Part shown: one piece after another, positions 148-34,637 of the stretch
Layout of the letters: every line of letters starts with the position of its first letter
Position numbering within the stretch: position 1 is the stretch's first letter
Source of the DNA: a virus
Strand: one strand, 5' to 3'
Length of the DNA: 34,637 bases
IMG/VR virus record: IMGVR_UViG_3300021091_000224
Span: 1 to 34,637 of that record
The notes under the pieces: model-generated
What the model saw: only the letters and a program-made list of their open reading frames with translations
Database searches by the model: none
What the model was told of the DNA's origin: nothing
Made by a program: the position numbers and the translations under genes

Positions 148-240
148 GTAAATAGTCGCTGACTTAAGGGTTATCCCTATTAGGGTTTAAGTAGGGTTTT
201 CACCTATTCTACAGCGTGTAGTTAGCTATACAATACATCC
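148..240. promoter_or_regulatory. divergent regulatory region between the 88-aa regulator and the 241-1632 operon
   Basis: The minus strand shows a plausible sigma-70 promoter for the 88-aa gene: TTGTAT at 233-228, a 16-base spacer and TAGAAT at 211-206. Its -35 overlaps the -10-like element of the plus-strand promoter (TACAAT 229-234), so the two promoters probably exclude each other. Between the minus -10 and ATG 147 lies a cluster of AGGG/CCCT motifs at 165-200. It includes CCCTATTAGGG at 175-185, the same core as the array at 34227-34400. This suggests autoregulation through that motif. All of this is prediction from sequence. Confidence 0.5.
215..240 (+). promoter_or_regulatory. promoter P1 with operator-like site O4
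   Basis: The block TAGTTAGCTATACAAT at 219-234 is repeated exactly on the minus strand in front of TerS (33852-33837). Bases 215-232 read CGTGTAG-TTAG-CTATACA, a weaker match to the 18-bp dyad TGTTYAG-N4-CTAYACA seen around cro. The -10-like TACAAT ends at 234 and an ATG follows after exactly six bases, at 241. No good -35 is visible. Confidence 0.5.
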
Positions 241-288
241 ATGCCGCACAGCAACATGCATAGCGGTCTGATCGGAGAGCTAAAATGA
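241..288 (+). CDS. possible leaderless 15-aa leader peptide
   Basis: ATG 241 lies six bases after the TACAAT element, where transcription would be expected to begin, so translation would be leaderless. The frame encodes MPHSNMHSGLIGELK, and its TGA (286-288) overlaps the ATG of the next gene (285) as ATGA. That overlap is the main argument for a coupling role. It could also be chance, because 15 codons carry little statistical weight. Confidence 0.35.
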   Translation: MPHSNMHSGLIGELK

Positions 289-2572: not shown

Positions 2573-2841
2573 TTTTCTTTTGCCATCCAGTAAAGCAATT
2601 CTGTAGCGGCCTTTTTTCCTCGCCTCTTTTCAATGTCCCCAATAACGCCTTCCCACCAGCCTCGAGCTTGCATAGACCCCTGCTCCTTCGCTTTCGCTCT
2701 GTAGCGTCTGATCCACTCCCTGGCCTCGCATCTTTTCATATGCTCCAAGATCTCCGGTGAGAAATAGGGCTTTGTCAACGATTGCAGCGGGGTAGTGGAC
2801 TCCATCTCTGACTCGATTGAGGATTTTTTGGGCTTGGTCAT
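2569..2841 (-). CDS. conserved small phage protein with CEAREW motif, 90 aa
   Basis: The C-terminal two thirds (CEAREWIRRYR, then RGWWEGVIGDIEKRRGKKAA) look like a small helical family common next to replication genes in proteobacterial phages. The function is unknown. The stop overlaps the RusA start (ATGA). ATG 2841 gives the longest frame. ATG 2739, preceded by GGAGCAT, would give 56 aa and remove most of the overlap with the other-frame gene at 2848-2630. The N-terminal 34 residues are less convincing than the rest. Confidence 0.65.
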   Translation of the reverse strand: MTKPKKSSIESEMESTTPLQSLTKPYFSPEILEHMKRCEAREWIRRYRAKAKEQGSMQARGWWEGVIGDIEKRRGKKAATELLYWMAKEK

Positions 2842-2848
2842 GGGTCAT
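2630..2848 (-). CDS. overlapping small phage protein with TGDL motif, 72 aa
   Basis: ATG 2848 overlaps the stop of the replication-like gene (ATGA) and has GGAGGGG just upstream, a better start context than the neighbour at 2841. Its first 35 residues (MTHDQAQKILNRVRDG... ALFLTGDL) resemble a small phage family usually encoded just before CEAREW-type proteins. The frame then runs to 2630 entirely inside the other gene. Either the genes genuinely overlap in two frames, or an indel in the assembly has merged two adjacent genes. Confidence 0.45.
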   Translation of the reverse strand: MTHDQAQKILNRVRDGVHYPAAIVDKALFLTGDLGAYEKMRGQGVDQTLQSESEGAGVYASSRLVGRRYWGH

Positions 2849-3988: not shown

Positions 3989-4147
3989 TCAAGTCCCCGC
4001 AAACCACTGGGGCTTTAAGACCATCAACTGATACAGGCGACCCTTCGGGATCTTATCCCACTGCGATACAGCACCCCTGGAGATGCCCAGCATCTTTGCC
4101 AAATTGCTCTGGCTGCCTGCCCTCTTGATCGCCTCTTCTTTGGTCAT
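3989..4147 (-). CDS. Cro-like repressor, 52 aa
   Basis: This short frame encodes a helix-turn-helix at residues 13-31 (QSNLAKMLGISRGAVSQW), followed by DKIPKGRLYQL. That is the Cro/YdaS-type signature in which a Cro-like protein binds operators as a dimer and represses early promoters. The length of 52 aa is at the small end for the family. It is divergent from the sigma-like gene at 4234, and the gap between them contains two copies of an 18-bp dyad, the expected operator arrangement. TACAAT (4159-4154) lies exactly six bases before the ATG and there is no ribosome binding site, so the mRNA is probably leaderless. No CI partner or integrase is visible. Confidence 0.8.
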   Translation of the reverse strand: MTKEEAIKRAGSQSNLAKMLGISRGAVSQWDKIPKGRLYQLMVLKPQWFAGT

Positions 4148-4153
4148 GTGGGC

Positions 4154-4184
4154 ATTGTAATACACCTGTTCAGTAATCTACACA
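4154..4184 (-). promoter_or_regulatory. early promoter for the cro-like operon with operator O1
   Basis: TACAAT at 4159-4154 is followed by six bases and then ATG 4147. O1 (4167-4184, plus-strand reading TGTTCAG-TAAT-CTACACA) covers the region where the -35 and spacer should be. Binding there would repress the operon, presumably by the Cro-like protein itself. The -35 hexamer is poor, as at the other phage promoters in this genome. Confidence 0.55.
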
Positions 4185-4207
4185 TTAGGGAAAGCACTAA
4201 TGCATCT

Positions 4208-4233
4208 TGTTTAGCATCCTATACACTATTGGC
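4208..4233 (+). promoter_or_regulatory. promoter P3 with operator O2
   Basis: O2 at 4208-4225 reads TGTTTAG-CATC-CTATACA, an 18-bp imperfect dyad whose half-sites match at six of seven positions. Its right half overlaps the -10-like TACACT (4222-4227). ATG 4234 follows after six bases, with no ribosome binding site. The element TTAGGGAAAG lies about 40 bases upstream (4185-4194), and the same ten bases occur at a similar distance before P4. Confidence 0.6.
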
Positions 4234-4698
4234 ATGGCAAAGACAGGAAAAGCATCCCCGCTCTACGGCAAACTGATGACCGCAGAGCTTCCAAGCGCAG
4301 TCAAAAAACTATGGTATTCCCGCGACGAGGAACTGCCAGAGTTGCCCAGGCATGGCTGGTCATTCGATCTGGTCACGGACATGGAATCAGTGGAGAACAG
4401 AGATCTGTTGTTCAAGATCCTGGAGGACTGCCCATTGACAGACCGCGAGATGCTGGCGATCAAACTGATCGAGCATGAAGGCTACACACTTGATGAAGCG
4501 GCCCAGGAACTTGATTGCGGCAAAGAACGCGCCCGTCAGATCCATATGAAAGCCCTCAGAAGACTTCGCACTCATCAAGTAAAGATCACAGGCCAGAAGT
4601 TGTGGGAACTGGAGTGCATTGTCCAGACCTGGAGAACCTGGAAGTGGTCAAGAGTTTCGCCGTGGCTTAGGGAAAGTACCTATTCCAATGGTGTTTAG
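4234..4698 (+). CDS. regulator with sigma-70 region-4-like helix-turn-helix, 154 aa
   Basis: Residues about 65-113 (CPLTDREMLAIKLIEHEGYT, then LDEAAQELDCGKERARQIH and MKALRRLR) closely match the HTH of sigma factor region 4, which normally reads the -35 element. There is no region 2, so it cannot act as a complete sigma factor; it is more likely an activator, repressor or sigma-appropriating protein. ATG 4234 is six bases after TACACT without a ribosome binding site, so leaderless translation is expected. The TAG stop lies inside operator O3, which controls the erf operon. It occupies the divergent position opposite cro where lambdoid phages carry cI. Confidence 0.7.
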   Translation: MAKTGKASPLYGKLMTAELPSAVKKLWYSRDEELPELPRHGWSFDLVTDMESVENRDLLFKILEDCPLTDREMLAIKLIEHEGYTLDEAAQELDCGKERARQIHMKALRRLRTHQVKITGQKLWELECIVQTWRTWKWSRVSPWLRESTYSNGV

Positions 4699-4717
4699 AA
4701 CGCTATACACTTTCCCC
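4692..4717 (+). promoter_or_regulatory. promoter P4 with operator O3, upstream of erf
   Basis: O3 at 4692-4709 reads TGTTTAG-AACG-CTATACA. It has both half-sites identical to O2 and a different 4-base spacer, as expected for a protein-binding dyad. TACACT (4706-4711) is followed by TTCCCC and then ATG 4718. The upstream ten-base block TTAGGGAAAG (4667-4676) is shared with P3. The site overlaps the 3' end of the sigma-like gene, giving the recombination genes their own repressible promoter. Confidence 0.6.
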
Positions 4718-4719
4718 AT

Positions 4720-4745
4720 GCCTCCTAGTTCGGAGGGCTTTTCAG
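4720..4745 (+). promoter_or_regulatory. weak hairpin in the erf leader
   Basis: CCTCC (4721-4725) can pair with GGAGG (4732-4736) across a six-base loop, followed by GCTTTTC. It could act as a weak attenuator or influence translation of erf, whose own AGGAG begins at 4744. The stem is short and the T tract poor, so termination is doubtful. Confidence 0.25.
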
Positions 4746-4753
4746 GAGTAAAG

Positions 4754-5317
4754 ATGGAAAACGCAAAGATTGCTGCGGCTCTAGTCAAGGCACAAAAAGC
4801 CTTTGGCCCTGCGCTAAAGACCAGCACCAACCCACACTTTCGGAGCCGCTATGCAGACCTAGCAGCTTGCGTAGAGGCTGTGATGGACGGACTTACAGCT
4901 AACGGCATCTTTTTTACGCAAAAAGTAGCCCCTTCGGAATCGGGCGTCCTAGTAGAAACCGTGTTCATCCACGAATCAGGTGAGACTTTATCATGTGGGC
5001 AGATCCATGTGCCAGCATCAAAACACGATGCACAGGGGTTTGGATCTGCTCTTACCTATGCTAGGCGCTATTCCCTGATGGCAGCTTGCGGAATCGCCCC
5101 AGAGGACGACGATGGCAATGCAGCCTCTAAGAAGAGCAGCGCAGATGACCAGCAGTTTGAGCAAGCCTACCTTGACAAGCTCAGGGAATCGGCCATGAGC
5201 GGCCTGGACGCCTTGGCTGCGGCGTTCAAGGAGATCCCAAACAGCCCTGCCAAGTCTCGGGTCTGGGCAAAGCACCAGGAAAGCCTCAAACAAGCCGCCC
5301 AGCAGGTGAAAAAGTGA
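4754..5317 (+). CDS. erf: ERF family single-strand annealing protein
   Basis: ERF proteins coat single-stranded DNA and anneal complementary strands in phage recombination. Segments such as NPHFRSRYADLAACVEAV, LTANGIFFTQKV and GFGSALTYARRYSLMAA (followed by CGIAPEDDDGN) are the family's conserved core, here within residues 1-120. A variable C-terminus follows. ATG 4754 has AGGAG five bases upstream. An in-frame ATG at 4718, six bases after TACACT, would add 12 residues to a leaderless product. It overlaps the downstream exonuclease by four bases. Pairing with YqaJ makes a complete Red-like recombination module, probably used for replication-linked recombination and circularisation. Confidence 0.93.
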   Translation: MENAKIAAALVKAQKAFGPALKTSTNPHFRSRYADLAACVEAVMDGLTANGIFFTQKVAPSESGVLVETVFIHESGETLSCGQIHVPASKHDAQGFGSALTYARRYSLMAACGIAPEDDDGNAASKKSSADDQQFEQAYLDKLRESAMSGLDALAAAFKEIPNSPAKSRVWAKHQESLKQAAQQVKK

Positions 5318-5931
5318 CTGAGCAGCGGACAGACGAGTGGTTCCAGCAGCGCCTGGGCAAGGTCACGGCTAGTAGCCTATACAAGGTTCTGTCCAAGACC
5401 AAGACAGGCTACGGGGCTGACCGGGGAAATTACATGACCCAGCTTGTCCTGGAGCGAATTACGGGCCAGAAAGCCGAGTCCTACACCAATGCCTCGATGC
5501 AATTGGGCATTGACCAGGAGCCGCTTGCCAGGGCCGCCTACGAGGCTTCCAGGGGCGTTTTTGTAGAGGAAGTGGGGTTTATCCCTCACCCGACCATAGA
5601 AATGGCTGGAGCGTCCCCTGACGGCCTTGTGGAGGACGGGATGGTCGAGATCAAGTGCCCAGATTCCAAGACCGCTCTGGAGGCTTGGCTGTCCAAGAAC
5701 CCTGTCGAGAGCAAGTATTTTGCCCAGATGCAGTGGCAGATGGCCTGTGCCAAAAGACCGTGGTGCGACTATGTGATCTATGACCCACGGATGCCTGTCA
5801 AGGCTCAGTTGCTTGTCGTTAGGGTAAATCGGGATGACAGGTGGTTAGAAGAGGCTGAAACTGAGGTCAGGAAGTTCCTGGCTGAAGTAGATGAGAAAGT
5901 GCAATCGTTGAAATCAATCATTGGAGAATGA
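5314..5931 (+). CDS. YqaJ-type viral recombinase exonuclease
   Basis: This is the lambda-Exo/YqaJ fold, a 5'-3' exonuclease that produces single-stranded tails for the annealing partner. Visible motifs are DEWFQQRLGKVTAS (7-20), GIDQE with E69, SPDG with D103, VEIKCP with E112 and K114, and YFAQMQWQM with Q138/Q140. This order is the PD-(D/E)XK arrangement of the family. The length (205 aa) is typical. GTG 5314 overlaps the erf stop (GTGA), giving translational coupling. A T-to-A mistake about function is unlikely given the intact catalytic set. Confidence 0.93.
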   Translation: MTEQRTDEWFQQRLGKVTASSLYKVLSKTKTGYGADRGNYMTQLVLERITGQKAESYTNASMQLGIDQEPLARAAYEASRGVFVEEVGFIPHPTIEMAGASPDGLVEDGMVEIKCPDSKTALEAWLSKNPVESKYFAQMQWQMACAKRPWCDYVIYDPRMPVKAQLLVVRVNRDDRWLEEAETEVRKFLAEVDEKVQSLKSIIGE

Positions 5932-7805: not shown

Positions 7806-8039
7806 GTGAGCGATTTAGAACTTTTTGACACTGACGATCCGTTATGGCATCAGATGCCAGAGTTCAATCAACAAGATCATGGCCCAATGTTTACGGTCAA
7901 AATCCACTTTAGAAATGAAGCGGACATGAACGAGTTTTTTGACTTAATCAATCAGCGCCGCACAAAAAGAAAAAGTTACTGGCATCCTGCCGCTGAGGTT
8001 CGCAGGGTGGCTGACAAACTATGGGAGGACACGAAGTGA
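7806..8039 (+). CDS. conserved small protein paired with the glycosyltransferase, 77 aa
   Basis: GTG 7806 has a perfect AGGAGG six bases upstream, inside the truncated remnant. The core MFTVKIHFRNEADMNEFFDL followed by RTKRKSYWHPA looks like a small phage family that I associate with DNA-modification and glycosyltransferase cassettes; that association is from memory. The fold looks like one beta-alpha-beta unit. The stop overlaps the glycosyltransferase GTG start, so the two are coupled. The function is unknown. Confidence 0.7.
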   Translation: MSDLELFDTDDPLWHQMPEFNQQDHGPMFTVKIHFRNEADMNEFFDLINQRRTKRKSYWHPAAEVRRVADKLWEDTK

Positions 8040-8920
8040 TTCCGTCATATCCCGTCTATATTGTGTCAAAAGGTAGATGGGAATATCATTTGCGCCTTAC
8101 GGCGCGAGCACTTGATAACATGAAAATTCCGTATTTTATTGTTGTCGAGGACTCGCAGTTTGCTCAATACGCTGCCGTAGTTGGGGCTGATCGCTGTTTG
8201 GTGCTTCCTGAAAAATATAAGATTGAGTATGACCTTTTTGGAAAGTTTGAAGATGGCAAGACAGGACCTGGACCGGCTCGAAATTTTGCGTGGCAACACT
8301 CCATTGATAACGGCTACAAGTGGCATTGGGTCATGGATGACAATATCGGCTCTTTTAGAAGGTTACATAACAACCTTCAAATCCGAGTTTCTGGGGGCGC
8401 GATATTTTGCGCTATGGAGGACTGGTGTGGCCGATACGAAAATGTCGTAATTGGTGGTCCGCAGTATGATTTTTTCTTGCCAAGCAAATACGCTTTCCCT
8501 CCATATGTTTTGAACACTAGGGTGTACTCTTGTCTGTTGATAAGAAATGACATTGGACTCAGGTGGCGCGGACGGTATAACGAAGACACCGACTTGTGCT
8601 TGAGAGCGTTAAAGTCAGGTTTGGTGACTGTGCAGTTTAACGCTTTCATTCAAGAGAAAAAAGAAACTCAGGGTATGCGCGGAGGAAACACAGACGAGTT
8701 TTATTTACAAGAAGGAACTAAAGCAAAAAGCGAAATGCTCGCCGCCATGCACCCAGATTGTGCAAAAGTGATTCGGAAATATGGGCGATGGCATCACCAT
8801 GTAAATTACAAGGTGTTCAAACAGCGTCCTGCGCTACGAGATGGCATCGTCATCGAAGCGGGGTATAACAACTATGGTATGGAACTTTCTTCAAAAAACA
8901 ACTGGCAAAATGACCGATAG
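8036..8920 (+). CDS. GT-A glycosyltransferase of the TET/JBP-associated (TAGT-like) type
   Basis: The residue blocks PVYIVSKGRWE (6-16), TGPGPARNFAW (76-86), WHWVMDDNIGSF with MDDN at 100-103 as the nucleotide-sugar/metal motif, and YNEDTDLCLR (181-190) match the phage glycosyltransferase family. Members of that family are proposed to add sugars to oxidised or hydroxymethylated pyrimidines in DNA. The length (294 aa) is normal. GTG 8036 has GGGAGG seven bases upstream and overlaps the previous stop. No TET/JBP dioxygenase or hydroxymethylase is visible in this genome, so the acceptor is unclear. The gene is more AT-rich than its neighbours and is bracketed by a direct repeat, pointing to lateral insertion. 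Confidence 0.8.
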   Translation: MIPSYPVYIVSKGRWEYHLRLTARALDNMKIPYFIVVEDSQFAQYAAVVGADRCLVLPEKYKIEYDLFGKFEDGKTGPGPARNFAWQHSIDNGYKWHWVMDDNIGSFRRLHNNLQIRVSGGAIFCAMEDWCGRYENVVIGGPQYDFFLPSKYAFPPYVLNTRVYSCLLIRNDIGLRWRGRYNEDTDLCLRALKSGLVTVQFNAFIQEKKETQGMRGGNTDEFYLQEGTKAKSEMLAAMHPDCAKVIRKYGRWHHHVNYKVFKQRPALRDGIVIEAGYNNYGMELSSKNNWQNDR

Positions 8921-9140: not shown

Positions 9141-9322
9141 AGGCTAAAATTCTTGACCCCAGCTTTAAATATGTAAACGCCGCATCGACTAACATTCAAG
9201 AAACATGGAAAAAATTTGGCTGGAGGCCGTTAAGTGAAATGCCCAAAATGCGGAGCGTGGAGTCTAGTGAGAGACACACGACAGAAGAACGGAACAGTCA
9301 GAAGATTCAGAGAGTGCGGTAA
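9137..9322 (+). CDS. conserved small phage protein, 61 aa
   Basis: The segment [20 protein letters not shown] followed by KKFGWRP looks like a recurrent small phage protein family of unknown function. ATG 9137 overlaps the previous stop. The conserved part ends near residue 33. The remaining residues overlap, in another frame, the zinc-ribbon gene starting at GTG 9234, and the stop overlaps ATG 9322 as TAATG. Confidence 0.65.
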
Positions 9323-9488
9323 TGAACATCGTTTTACCACTGAAGAGCATGAAGTTCCCAAAAACAAACGAGGCGGGTCCAGACTTCGACGCCTGGAATC
9401 ACGAGAACTTAGCCCAGTTCGCCAAACAAGCGAACGAACGAATGAAGGCTCAGGAGGAGCAGATAGAGGCTCTGAAGATGGACGTTAG
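9234..9488 (+). CDS. small zinc-ribbon protein, 84 aa
   Basis: The N-terminus [17 protein letters not shown]...[14 protein letters not shown] carries C3, C6, C27 and H31, the half-ribbon seen in many phage NrdR-like zinc-ribbon proteins. GTG 9234 has GGAGG about ten bases upstream. Only the first 40 residues look conserved. The rest overlaps the gene at 9322 in another frame and is low-complexity and basic, so the functional protein may be just the ribbon. It may bind nucleic acid; no target is known. Confidence 0.6.
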
Positions 9489-11782: not shown

Positions 11783-12262
11783 TCAGTGTTGCTTTTGAAG
11801 TGCTTCAAACACAAAATAAAAAGTGACACCCAGAAGAACAAGTGTCACAAGTACCGCTGAAATTATCAAAAGAGCTTCTTCGATCTCTTCTTTTTTTCGC
11901 TTGGCCTCTGCCTTGCGCCTGCCCTCAGCTTTTGCCGCATCGGCCTCCATCTGCTTTGCACGAGCGGTAATCCGCATCCAGACATCCATCTTGTTGCTCT
12001 GGAAAAACAGCATCTTTACAGACTCTTCAAACTCCCTGGCCTGCTCCAGAGCCATCTCAAGCTCCAAAGCCTTGCCAAGCGCTGAACCCTTGAACTCGCC
12101 CTTTTTAGACTTCTCAACAACCTTGATGGCCTGTTCTTTGGCGTCAAAGTACTTAGACAAGACTGGGCCTAGAGAGGCCACATCGTCAACCGTCTTGGAT
12201 ACTTTCTTGACTAAGGCAACAGCAGATGAGATGGCTGAAAGTGCGGTTATCGGGTCAATCAT
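11783..12262 (-). CDS. C-tail-anchored membrane protein in the lysis region, 159 aa
   Basis: The N-terminus (DPITALSAISSAVALVKKVS, then KTVDDVASLGPVLSKYFDA) looks like a conserved family of podovirus late genes of unknown role. A long charged helix, probably coiled coil, runs at 65-128, and one transmembrane helix occupies 130-153, leaving a short tail. It could be an inner-membrane lysis accessory protein or an ejected virion component. No lipobox is present for a spanin. It overlaps the upstream gene by eight bases. Confidence 0.7.
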   Translation of the reverse strand: MIDPITALSAISSAVALVKKVSKTVDDVASLGPVLSKYFDAKEQAIKVVEKSKKGEFKGSALGKALELEMALEQAREFEESVKMLFFQSNKMDVWMRITARAKQMEADAAKAEGRRKAEAKRKKEEIEEALLIISAVLVTLVLLGVTFYFVFEALQKQH

Positions 12263-33829: not shown

Positions 33830-33852
33830 AGCAGGCATTGTATAGCTAACTA
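33830..33852 (-). promoter_or_regulatory. late promoter P2 in front of TerS
   Basis: TAGTTAGCTATACAAT (33852-33837) is identical over 16 bases to the element of promoter P1 at 219-234. TACAAT is followed by seven bases and then ATG 33829. The left operator half seen at P1 is not conserved here, so this promoter may share the polymerase-binding element but not the repressor control. It probably starts the 24-kb late operon. Confidence 0.55.
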
Positions 33853-34226
33853 GCGTATTCCCCAATAGGGTAAACCATGATAGAGTACGGCAACGGGGCT
33901 ATGACCCAGCCCTCTATGCGGTTGAGCCGACCAAGTAGGATAAACGTGACGAACTGGGTGAGTCTCAAGTAACCCTCTGCCAACGCTGTGACAGCGCCGC
34001 AGACCAGGTGAACAGGGCAAGCGACTCAGGCGCTAACAAGCGTAGTCTAGATAAACGAGAGGCTCCCTTTTCAAAAGGACTACCCACACCACGGGTCCCC
34101 GGGTATTCCTCTCTCCCCCTTTTTTTACAGCCAAACTTGCAATTGGCGAAAACCTTATTTCACTTTTTCGGAGGGAATGGGGGACCACAAATATTTCACA
34201 GCAGCGCAGACCCCTCCCCCCCCATA
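33853..34226. other. non-coding region upstream of the late operon
   Basis: No gene is supported in these 374 bases; the open frames here are not conserved-looking. Visible elements are AATAGGGTAAACC next to P2, a hairpin GGGCT/AGCCC near 33895-33915, and a 13-base palindrome CGCTGTGACAGCG (33984-33996). There are repeated GATAAACG words, GCCAA/TTGGC near 34130, and a run of Cs just before the repeat array. It may hold packaging or origin signals. Confidence 0.4.
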
Positions 34227-34400
34227 CCTAGGGTAAACCCTAACAGGGCCAGCGAGCATAGGGTAGACCCTAATAGGGAAAACGAGCACAGCGCTAACCC
34301 TTGTTGCGTCTGCGCCACAGGGACAAACCCTAATAGGGTTAAGTACTGATAGGGTAAACCCTGATAGGGTAAACGAGCATAGGGAAAACCCTGATGCGCG
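34227..34400. repeat. 30-bp tandem repeat array (iteron/operator-like)
   Basis: Five to six tandem units of 29-31 bases lie at about 34227, 34257, 34287 (degenerate), 34316, 34347 and 34378. The core is ATAGGGTAAACCCTAATAGGG, given here as its halves ATAGGGTAA and ACCCTAATAGGG, with a CGAG or CATAGGG linker. ACCCTA-A-TAGGG is a dyad. Units are contiguous with no unique spacers, so this is not CRISPR. The array is typical of iterons bound by an initiator, or of a multi-site operator. Confidence 0.85.
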
Positions 34401-34412
34401 GGATGCGTGGGG

Positions 34413-34637
34413 TTATGTGGATTTTGCATGGGACCGTTTCATAGGTGAAACGCGGGTAGATGGGGGCGATGCACCATTTTCGGGGTACTCTTGGGGGTGC
34501 CTAGTCCCTGATGTTTCACGTGGAACAGTTGTCACAATCGGGTGGATAGCTTGCCATAGTGCTAGGCACTCTTGGAAACCTACGGTTATGTCACCCTTGC
34601 CAGCGTGGAGCAGAATTTCCCTTTGTTGGGGCGTGAT
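34413..34637 (-). CDS. small DNA-binding-type regulator, C-terminal part (gene crosses the join)
   Basis: This is the in-frame continuation of the gene that starts at ATG 147. From the window edge it encodes ITPQQREILLHAGKGDITVG and ends KRSHAKST at TAA 34415. This copy carries V and Q where the left copy has L and H, plus two silent changes. The C-terminal 40 residues are Pro/Ser/Arg-rich and probably disordered. It is encoded immediately beside the repeat array, which supports a role in binding it. Confidence 0.7.
   Translation of the reverse strand: MTPQQREILLHAGKGDITVGFQECLALWQAIHPIVTTVPRETSGTRHPQEYPENGASPPSTRVSPMKRSHAKST
34533..34637. repeat. terminal direct repeat, right copy
   Basis: Matches positions 1-105 at 101 of 105 bases. 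Collapsing the overlap gives a circle of about 34,532 bp. The four substitutions are confined to a 16-base stretch. Confidence 0.9.

Follow-up and report, generated by a model that had tools for sequence, protein, structure and literature searches.

The early region of an uncultured phage raises a regulatory question: which protein recognizes the 18-bp palindromes that surround its cro-like gene, and which promoters does that protein control? The window, that is, the stretch of DNA analyzed here, is the whole virus record of 34,637 bases. The initial annotation had proposed three operators with shared seven-base half-sites and differing central bases, a fourth, weaker site at a promoter denoted P1, and the Cro-like protein as candidate ligand, thus placing four transcription units in one regulon. 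The sites and genes concerned are:

215-232, plus strand: O4 (P1), weaker putative Cro operator, overlapping the -10 element of the first plus-strand operon; rank 4 in the matrix scan
3989-4147, minus strand: cro, 52-aa P22_Cro-family protein (Pfam P22_Cro, 5.6e-13)
4167-4184, minus strand: O1, putative Cro operator over the -35/spacer of the cro promoter; exact motif
4208-4225, plus strand: O2, putative Cro operator overlapping the -10 of the sigma-like promoter; exact motif
4234-4698, plus strand: lineage-specific protein with sigma region 4 only, divergent from cro (Pfam Sigma70_r4, 6e-11, no other match)
4692-4709, plus strand: O3, putative Cro operator overlapping the -10 of the erf operon promoter; exact motif
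4754-5317, plus strand: erf, Erf single-strand annealing protein (Pfam ERF, 4.1e-22)
5314-5931, plus strand: YqaJ-like exonuclease, gene 2 of the erf operon (Pfam YqaJ, 1.3e-23)

The coordinates and the motif of the three strong sites proved exact: O1, O2, and O3 are the only copies of TGTTYAG-N4-CTAYACA in the record. In symmetric form, the half-sites read TGTWTAG and CTAWACA, making up an 18-bp palindrome with a free N4 center. When the window was simulated 300 times with a first-order Markov model, the exact motif never arose, and the relaxed form TGTNTAG-N4-CTANACA arose at 0.003 per simulated window on one strand; the O1-O3 sites are real, far beyond chance. When a matrix built from these sites was used to scan the record, as the initial annotation had suggested, the four proposed sites came out on top (O3 > O2 > O1 > 215-232), followed in fifth place by a match at 12102 within a coding region, with a score of 14.6 compared to 17.0 for 215-232. 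By matrix score alone, the 215-232 site is marginal, modestly above the best coding-region match. The -10 elements overlapped by O2, O3, and the P1 site are of the form TACACT/TACAAT.

The same sites were sought in relatives collected from viral contigs (33 loci encoding a Cro relative, 80 loci with erf) and were found conserved at homologous promoters. Sites related to O1 are present at cro in L001, L019, and L036; O2 is kept in L003-L008, L019-L023, and L037-L042, with differing N4 centers; and O3 is kept upstream of erf in L001, L007, L019, L023, L036, and L054. The fourth site is marginal on the matrix, but the P1-homologous promoter of L002, L006, and L022 bears CGTTCAGCTACCTATACA, CGTATAGATGGCTATACA, and TGTTTAGAAAACTCTACA, respectively; with this recurrence, the proposed regulon of four promoters (cro, the sigma-like gene, the erf operon, and the P1 operon) stands. 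The overlap of O3 with the end of the sigma-like gene, to which attention had been drawn, is genuine in that the TAG stop codon lies inside the site; in L003, L007, and L036, however, the site is located downstream of the stop, so that the overlap appears incidental, without a meaning of its own.

The product of the 52-codon gene belongs, by sequence and model, to the P22_Cro family. It matches the Pfam profile (PF14549) with 48.9 bits, above the cut-off of 30.2, and its best PDB match by both sequence and fold is P22 Cro (1RZS). The AlphaFold model (pLDDT 94.8) adopts an all-helical Cro fold that superimposes on 1RZS at 1.3 A over 45 columns; the next match was 6ON0, the N15 Cro bound to its operator, and Xfaso 1 Cro was also among the top fold matches. 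The predicted recognition helix is SRGAVSQW.

The case for this protein as the ligand comes mainly from covariation between the recognition helix and the half-site. A Cro profile search brought in many further distinct Cro proteins adjoining erf, and the set used for covariation consists of 34 Cro clusters. Helices of the type SRGAV(S/N/H/W) or SRAAVH are accompanied by TGTNTAG-type palindromes in the cro region, SQAAV by TATAAG-N4-CTTATA, and TRAAVS by GTTAAG-N4-CTTAAT. The AAG-N4-CTT core was detected in only 1 of the 8 RGAV/RAAVH clusters compared to 22 of the 26 other clusters (Fisher p = 4e-4), and the contrast for the TAG core is weaker (4/8 vs 2/26, p = 0.018), the 80% identity clustering being the only control for relatedness in both comparisons. 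A Cro from a Comamonadaceae genome bin, with the helix TRAAVHNW and the site TGTTTAG-TTTG-GTGTACA, appears to obey the same rule; two exceptions, L033 and L025, both temperate and CI-bearing, combine an RGAV helix with the lack of a TAG site. Together with the family, the predicted fold, and the P22-type layout of the operators, this covariation across many lineages, indirect but strong evidence, supports the Cro-like protein as the ligand of the sites, as originally suggested.

Judged from sequence, the window operators are of a known kind, namely, P22-type Cro sites. The Cro protein of phage ES18 fully matches P22 Cro across the 45 residues searched, and its annotated operators, ATTTAAG-ACTT-CTTAATT, AGTTAAG-TCAT-CTTAAAT, and ATTTAAG-TGTT-CTTTAAT, can be read as an 18-bp ANTNAAG-N4-CTTNANT. 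The window system thus resembles Cro and OR/OL of P22, ES18, and HK629 in the protein family, the all-alpha fold, the 18-bp palindrome with a free N4, and the overlap of operators with early promoters. It differs in the half-site core (TAG, in contrast to AAG in those phages), in the lack of a nearby C2/CI gene, and in the position of cro, which is divergent from the region-4 gene and the erf operon rather than from a repressor gene. The P22 repressor senses the operator center indirectly. The Cro proteins of N15, phiKO2, and PY54 likewise have the P22-like fold predicted for the window Cro; the PY54 and phiKO2 proteins have one operator each, beside the prophage repressor gene (PMC4488713, PMC4997575), as opposed to the several sites in the window, where no such gene was found. 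Correlation of Cro helix residues with half-site bases has been described (Hall, Lefevre and Cordes 2005, as cited in PMC4997575 and PMC4488713); the pairing of helix and half-site observed here is alike in principle, at the level of helix type and half-site class, whereas the pairs themselves come from uncultured phages, with the helices SRGAV, SQAAV, TRAAV, and TRQAI.

The phage seems, by gene content, to be CI-less, that is, to encode Cro without the partner repressor. Neither a second HTH_3 protein nor a Peptidase_S24 repressor was detected in the record, and no match to tyrosine (PF00589) or serine (PF00239) recombinases was found in it, the record being possibly incomplete; thus, neither the cro/CI pairing of a lambdoid immunity region nor an integrase pointing to a temperate life style was found. 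Among 28 records, CI-type HTH_3 proteins are encoded in G003, G004, and G010, exactly the three that carry an integrase, and two of these three also encode S24 repressors; the searches detected neither CI nor an S24 repressor nor an integrase in most of the relatives, as in the window phage. A literature search for CI-less Cro phages returned nothing relevant. The two ends of the record form an imperfect direct repeat (1-104 vs 34534-34637, 99 of 103 bases identical; the ends were not recognised as repeats), which suggests a near-complete, terminally redundant genome; its completeness is not certified, so that there is a residual chance of a CI gene outside the record.

Several other features lie near these ends or elsewhere in the record. 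A non-coding region that separates the late genes from the end of the record contains an array of 15-bp units of the TAGGGTAAACCCTGA type (34229-34397), possibly an origin or a binding array. A small protein of ribbon-helix-helix appearance (MARP...ITPQQREILLHAGKGDIT...) is split by the record ends (1-147 and 34413-34637, both minus strand); it is kept in the close lineage, with TAGGG boxes on its flanks, and a family search with it gave no match. The gene at 8021-8920 encodes a glycosyltransferase akin to beta-glucosyl-HMC-alpha-glucosyltransferase (phrog_842, 4.9e-47), perhaps with a role in DNA modification.

In relatives, operators recur at the promoters of cro, the sigma-like gene, and erf, and L002, L006, and L022 have one at the P1-like promoter as well. 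Together with this recurrence, these observations point to a small Cro-family repressor that very probably shuts off four promoters of its own phage through 18-base sites. A Cro dimer would contact the two TGTWTAG half-sites via the helix SRGAVSQW, leaving the four central bases free. As O2, O3, and the 215-232 site cover the -10 of the sigma-like, erf, and P1 promoter, respectively, while O1 covers the cro -35/spacer, bound Cro would block RNA polymerase. Early in infection, the four promoters would fire, and the rising level of Cro would then silence the recombination functions, the gene for the region-4 protein, the P1 operon, and cro itself, in a Cro-only shut-off of early genes in which CI would take no part. 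We infer binding, repression, timing, and transcription starts, and hold this explanation as a whole with high confidence. From the positions of the -10 elements, the cro and sigma-like mRNAs are predicted to be leaderless. The cro and cI mRNAs of PY54 are leaderless as well (PMC4488713).

The designation of the gene divergent from cro as sigma-like holds in part: region 4, responsible for -35 recognition, is present, but region 2 (core and -10 binding) was not found, with no Sigma70_r2 match at E 0.1. The protein was aligned with 12 relatives, and its AlphaFold model is confident in region 4 only (the N-terminal half is poorly modeled); it is full length in only 5 of the 25 other records searched.

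A second element, a box of the TAGGG-N6-CCTA type, accompanies the three plus-strand promoters of the window (sigma-like, erf, and P1), all of which match the -35 consensus in only 2-4 of 6 positions:

192-206, unstranded: putative activator site of P1, a TAGGG box with the sequence TAGGGTTTTCACCTA that matches the consensus exactly; the -10 lies 30 bp below
4186-4200, unstranded: TAGGG box assigned to the sigma-like promoter, flanked by O1 and O2, TAGGGAAAGCACTAA; 27 bp above the -10
4668-4682, unstranded: TAGGG box of the erf promoter, TAGGGAAAGTACCTA, exact; 29 bp above the -10

No box of the 192-206 type was found in 30 simulations. Of 58 distinct 130-bp regions upstream of cro in relatives, 31 contain a box; for stretches drawn at random from the same contigs, the figure is 12%. 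In a set of 53 promoters, comprising leader-bearing ones and two window promoters added by hand, 31 carry the box, its center lying 27-31, 39-42, or 50-52 bp upstream of the -10. When positions were drawn at random from a uniform distribution (n = 31 or 15), none of the 5000 sets reached this periodicity, and promoters with the nearest box have a poorer -35 than those with a far box (p = 0.003), these p-values being optimistic because homologous promoters are not independent; most of the box-less promoters have a TTGACA-like -35. In CRP-type activation, activators occupy class I and class II positions, and by analogy, the helical phasing combined with a weak -35 when the box is nearest would be the signature of an activator at such positions. 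Half of a TAGGG box, together with the -10, is also kept in the promoter before the terminase genes (~33840-33880, minus strand), where only half of the Cro operator is present; with a single operator half, this late promoter is expected to be Cro-insensitive.

Three candidate explanations of the box were rejected: an origin in a host regulon, as three bacterial genomes with Cro relatives contain the box pattern no more often than its reverse; the ribbon-helix-helix-like gene as a general binder, as it is found only in the close lineage of the window; and the sigma-like protein, as the box-bearing G002, G009, G020, and G021 lack it. When six phages with the box were compared with five lacking it, gene content singled out an ORF family (2630-2848, minus strand) found in 6/6 and 0/5, respectively, a small ORF that overlaps 2569-2841 in another frame and gave no match in a family search, and an NrdR/Ogr-Delta-like zinc-ribbon family (9234-9488, in the plus-strand operon) found in 5/6 and 1/5; given shared ancestry, these associations are only a lead.

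The box allows a different view of the operators, namely, that Cro binds them but mainly antagonizes the box activator instead of simply shutting off transcription. The location of the box between O1 and O2 and its fixed phase above the controlled promoters fit this possibility; we nevertheless regard it as unlikely, considering that 27 of the 58 distinct cro upstream regions have no box and that the activator is only putative. A quite improbable alternative is that the sites mainly serve another dimeric repressor, of the CI/C2 type or a host regulator, with Cro secondary or unrelated: lambdoid CI/C2 and Cro do share operators, as in the ES18 annotation, but no CI-like gene is found in the record, and the half-site shifts with the helix of the adjacent Cro. 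Hardly tenable is the view of the CTATACA(AT) half as a mere -10 element, with the palindrome arising secondarily from promoter conservation or serving as the element that the sigma-like protein recognizes. In its favor, the right half overlaps the -10 in O2, O3, and P1, and a good -35 is missing from the window promoters. Against it, the left half TGTTTAG shows equal conservation and is no known promoter element, O1 lies off the -10, L054, L078, and L089 retain palindromes in records from which the sigma-like gene is absent, and the AAG-core class has another half-site at the same place.

Direct repression by Cro thus remains the preferred reading, and downstream of two of the promoters concerned, there is a further conserved element:

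241-284, plus strand: predicted 5' hairpin leader of the P1 transcript, of the same leader family as that of the erf transcript
4718-4753, plus strand: 5' hairpin leader predicted for the erf transcript, from a set of 34 leaders that share a stem-loop and show compensatory changes

The 34 distinct leaders, located directly after early -10 elements, share CAUGCC...GG[UG]C...GGA and fold as a 5' hairpin with the layout CAUGCC-stem-loop-GG[UG]C-(U-run)-AGGA. At the fourth pair, the combinations are C-G in 19 leaders, G-C in 9, U-A in 2, and A-U in 1, and the bases are unpaired in 3 (n = 34). A comparison with Rfam gave no match. Judging from this pattern, the P1 and erf transcripts should start with a conserved 5' hairpin.

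The CI-less wiring and the phased second box would make this system a variant of P22-type Cro control. Beyond the Cro shut-off itself, we see an even chance that a group of CI-less uncultured phages shares a two-part early switch, turned on by the box activator and off by P22-type Cro at the -10, followed by the common 5' hairpin on transcripts of the P1 and erf types. In such a switch, the activator would bind TAGGG-N6-CCTA-type boxes on one helix face, at about -42, -53, or -64, and replace the -35 element when closest. The phased boxes, together with the 5' hairpins, suggest a type of promoter module for which the searches made gave no match, and the many natural pairs of helix and half-site give the known Cro recognition code a new body of data. 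For the phages themselves, the presence of a P22-type Cro-operator code in a group without detectable CI or integrase implies that Cro would act alone, as an early shut-off.
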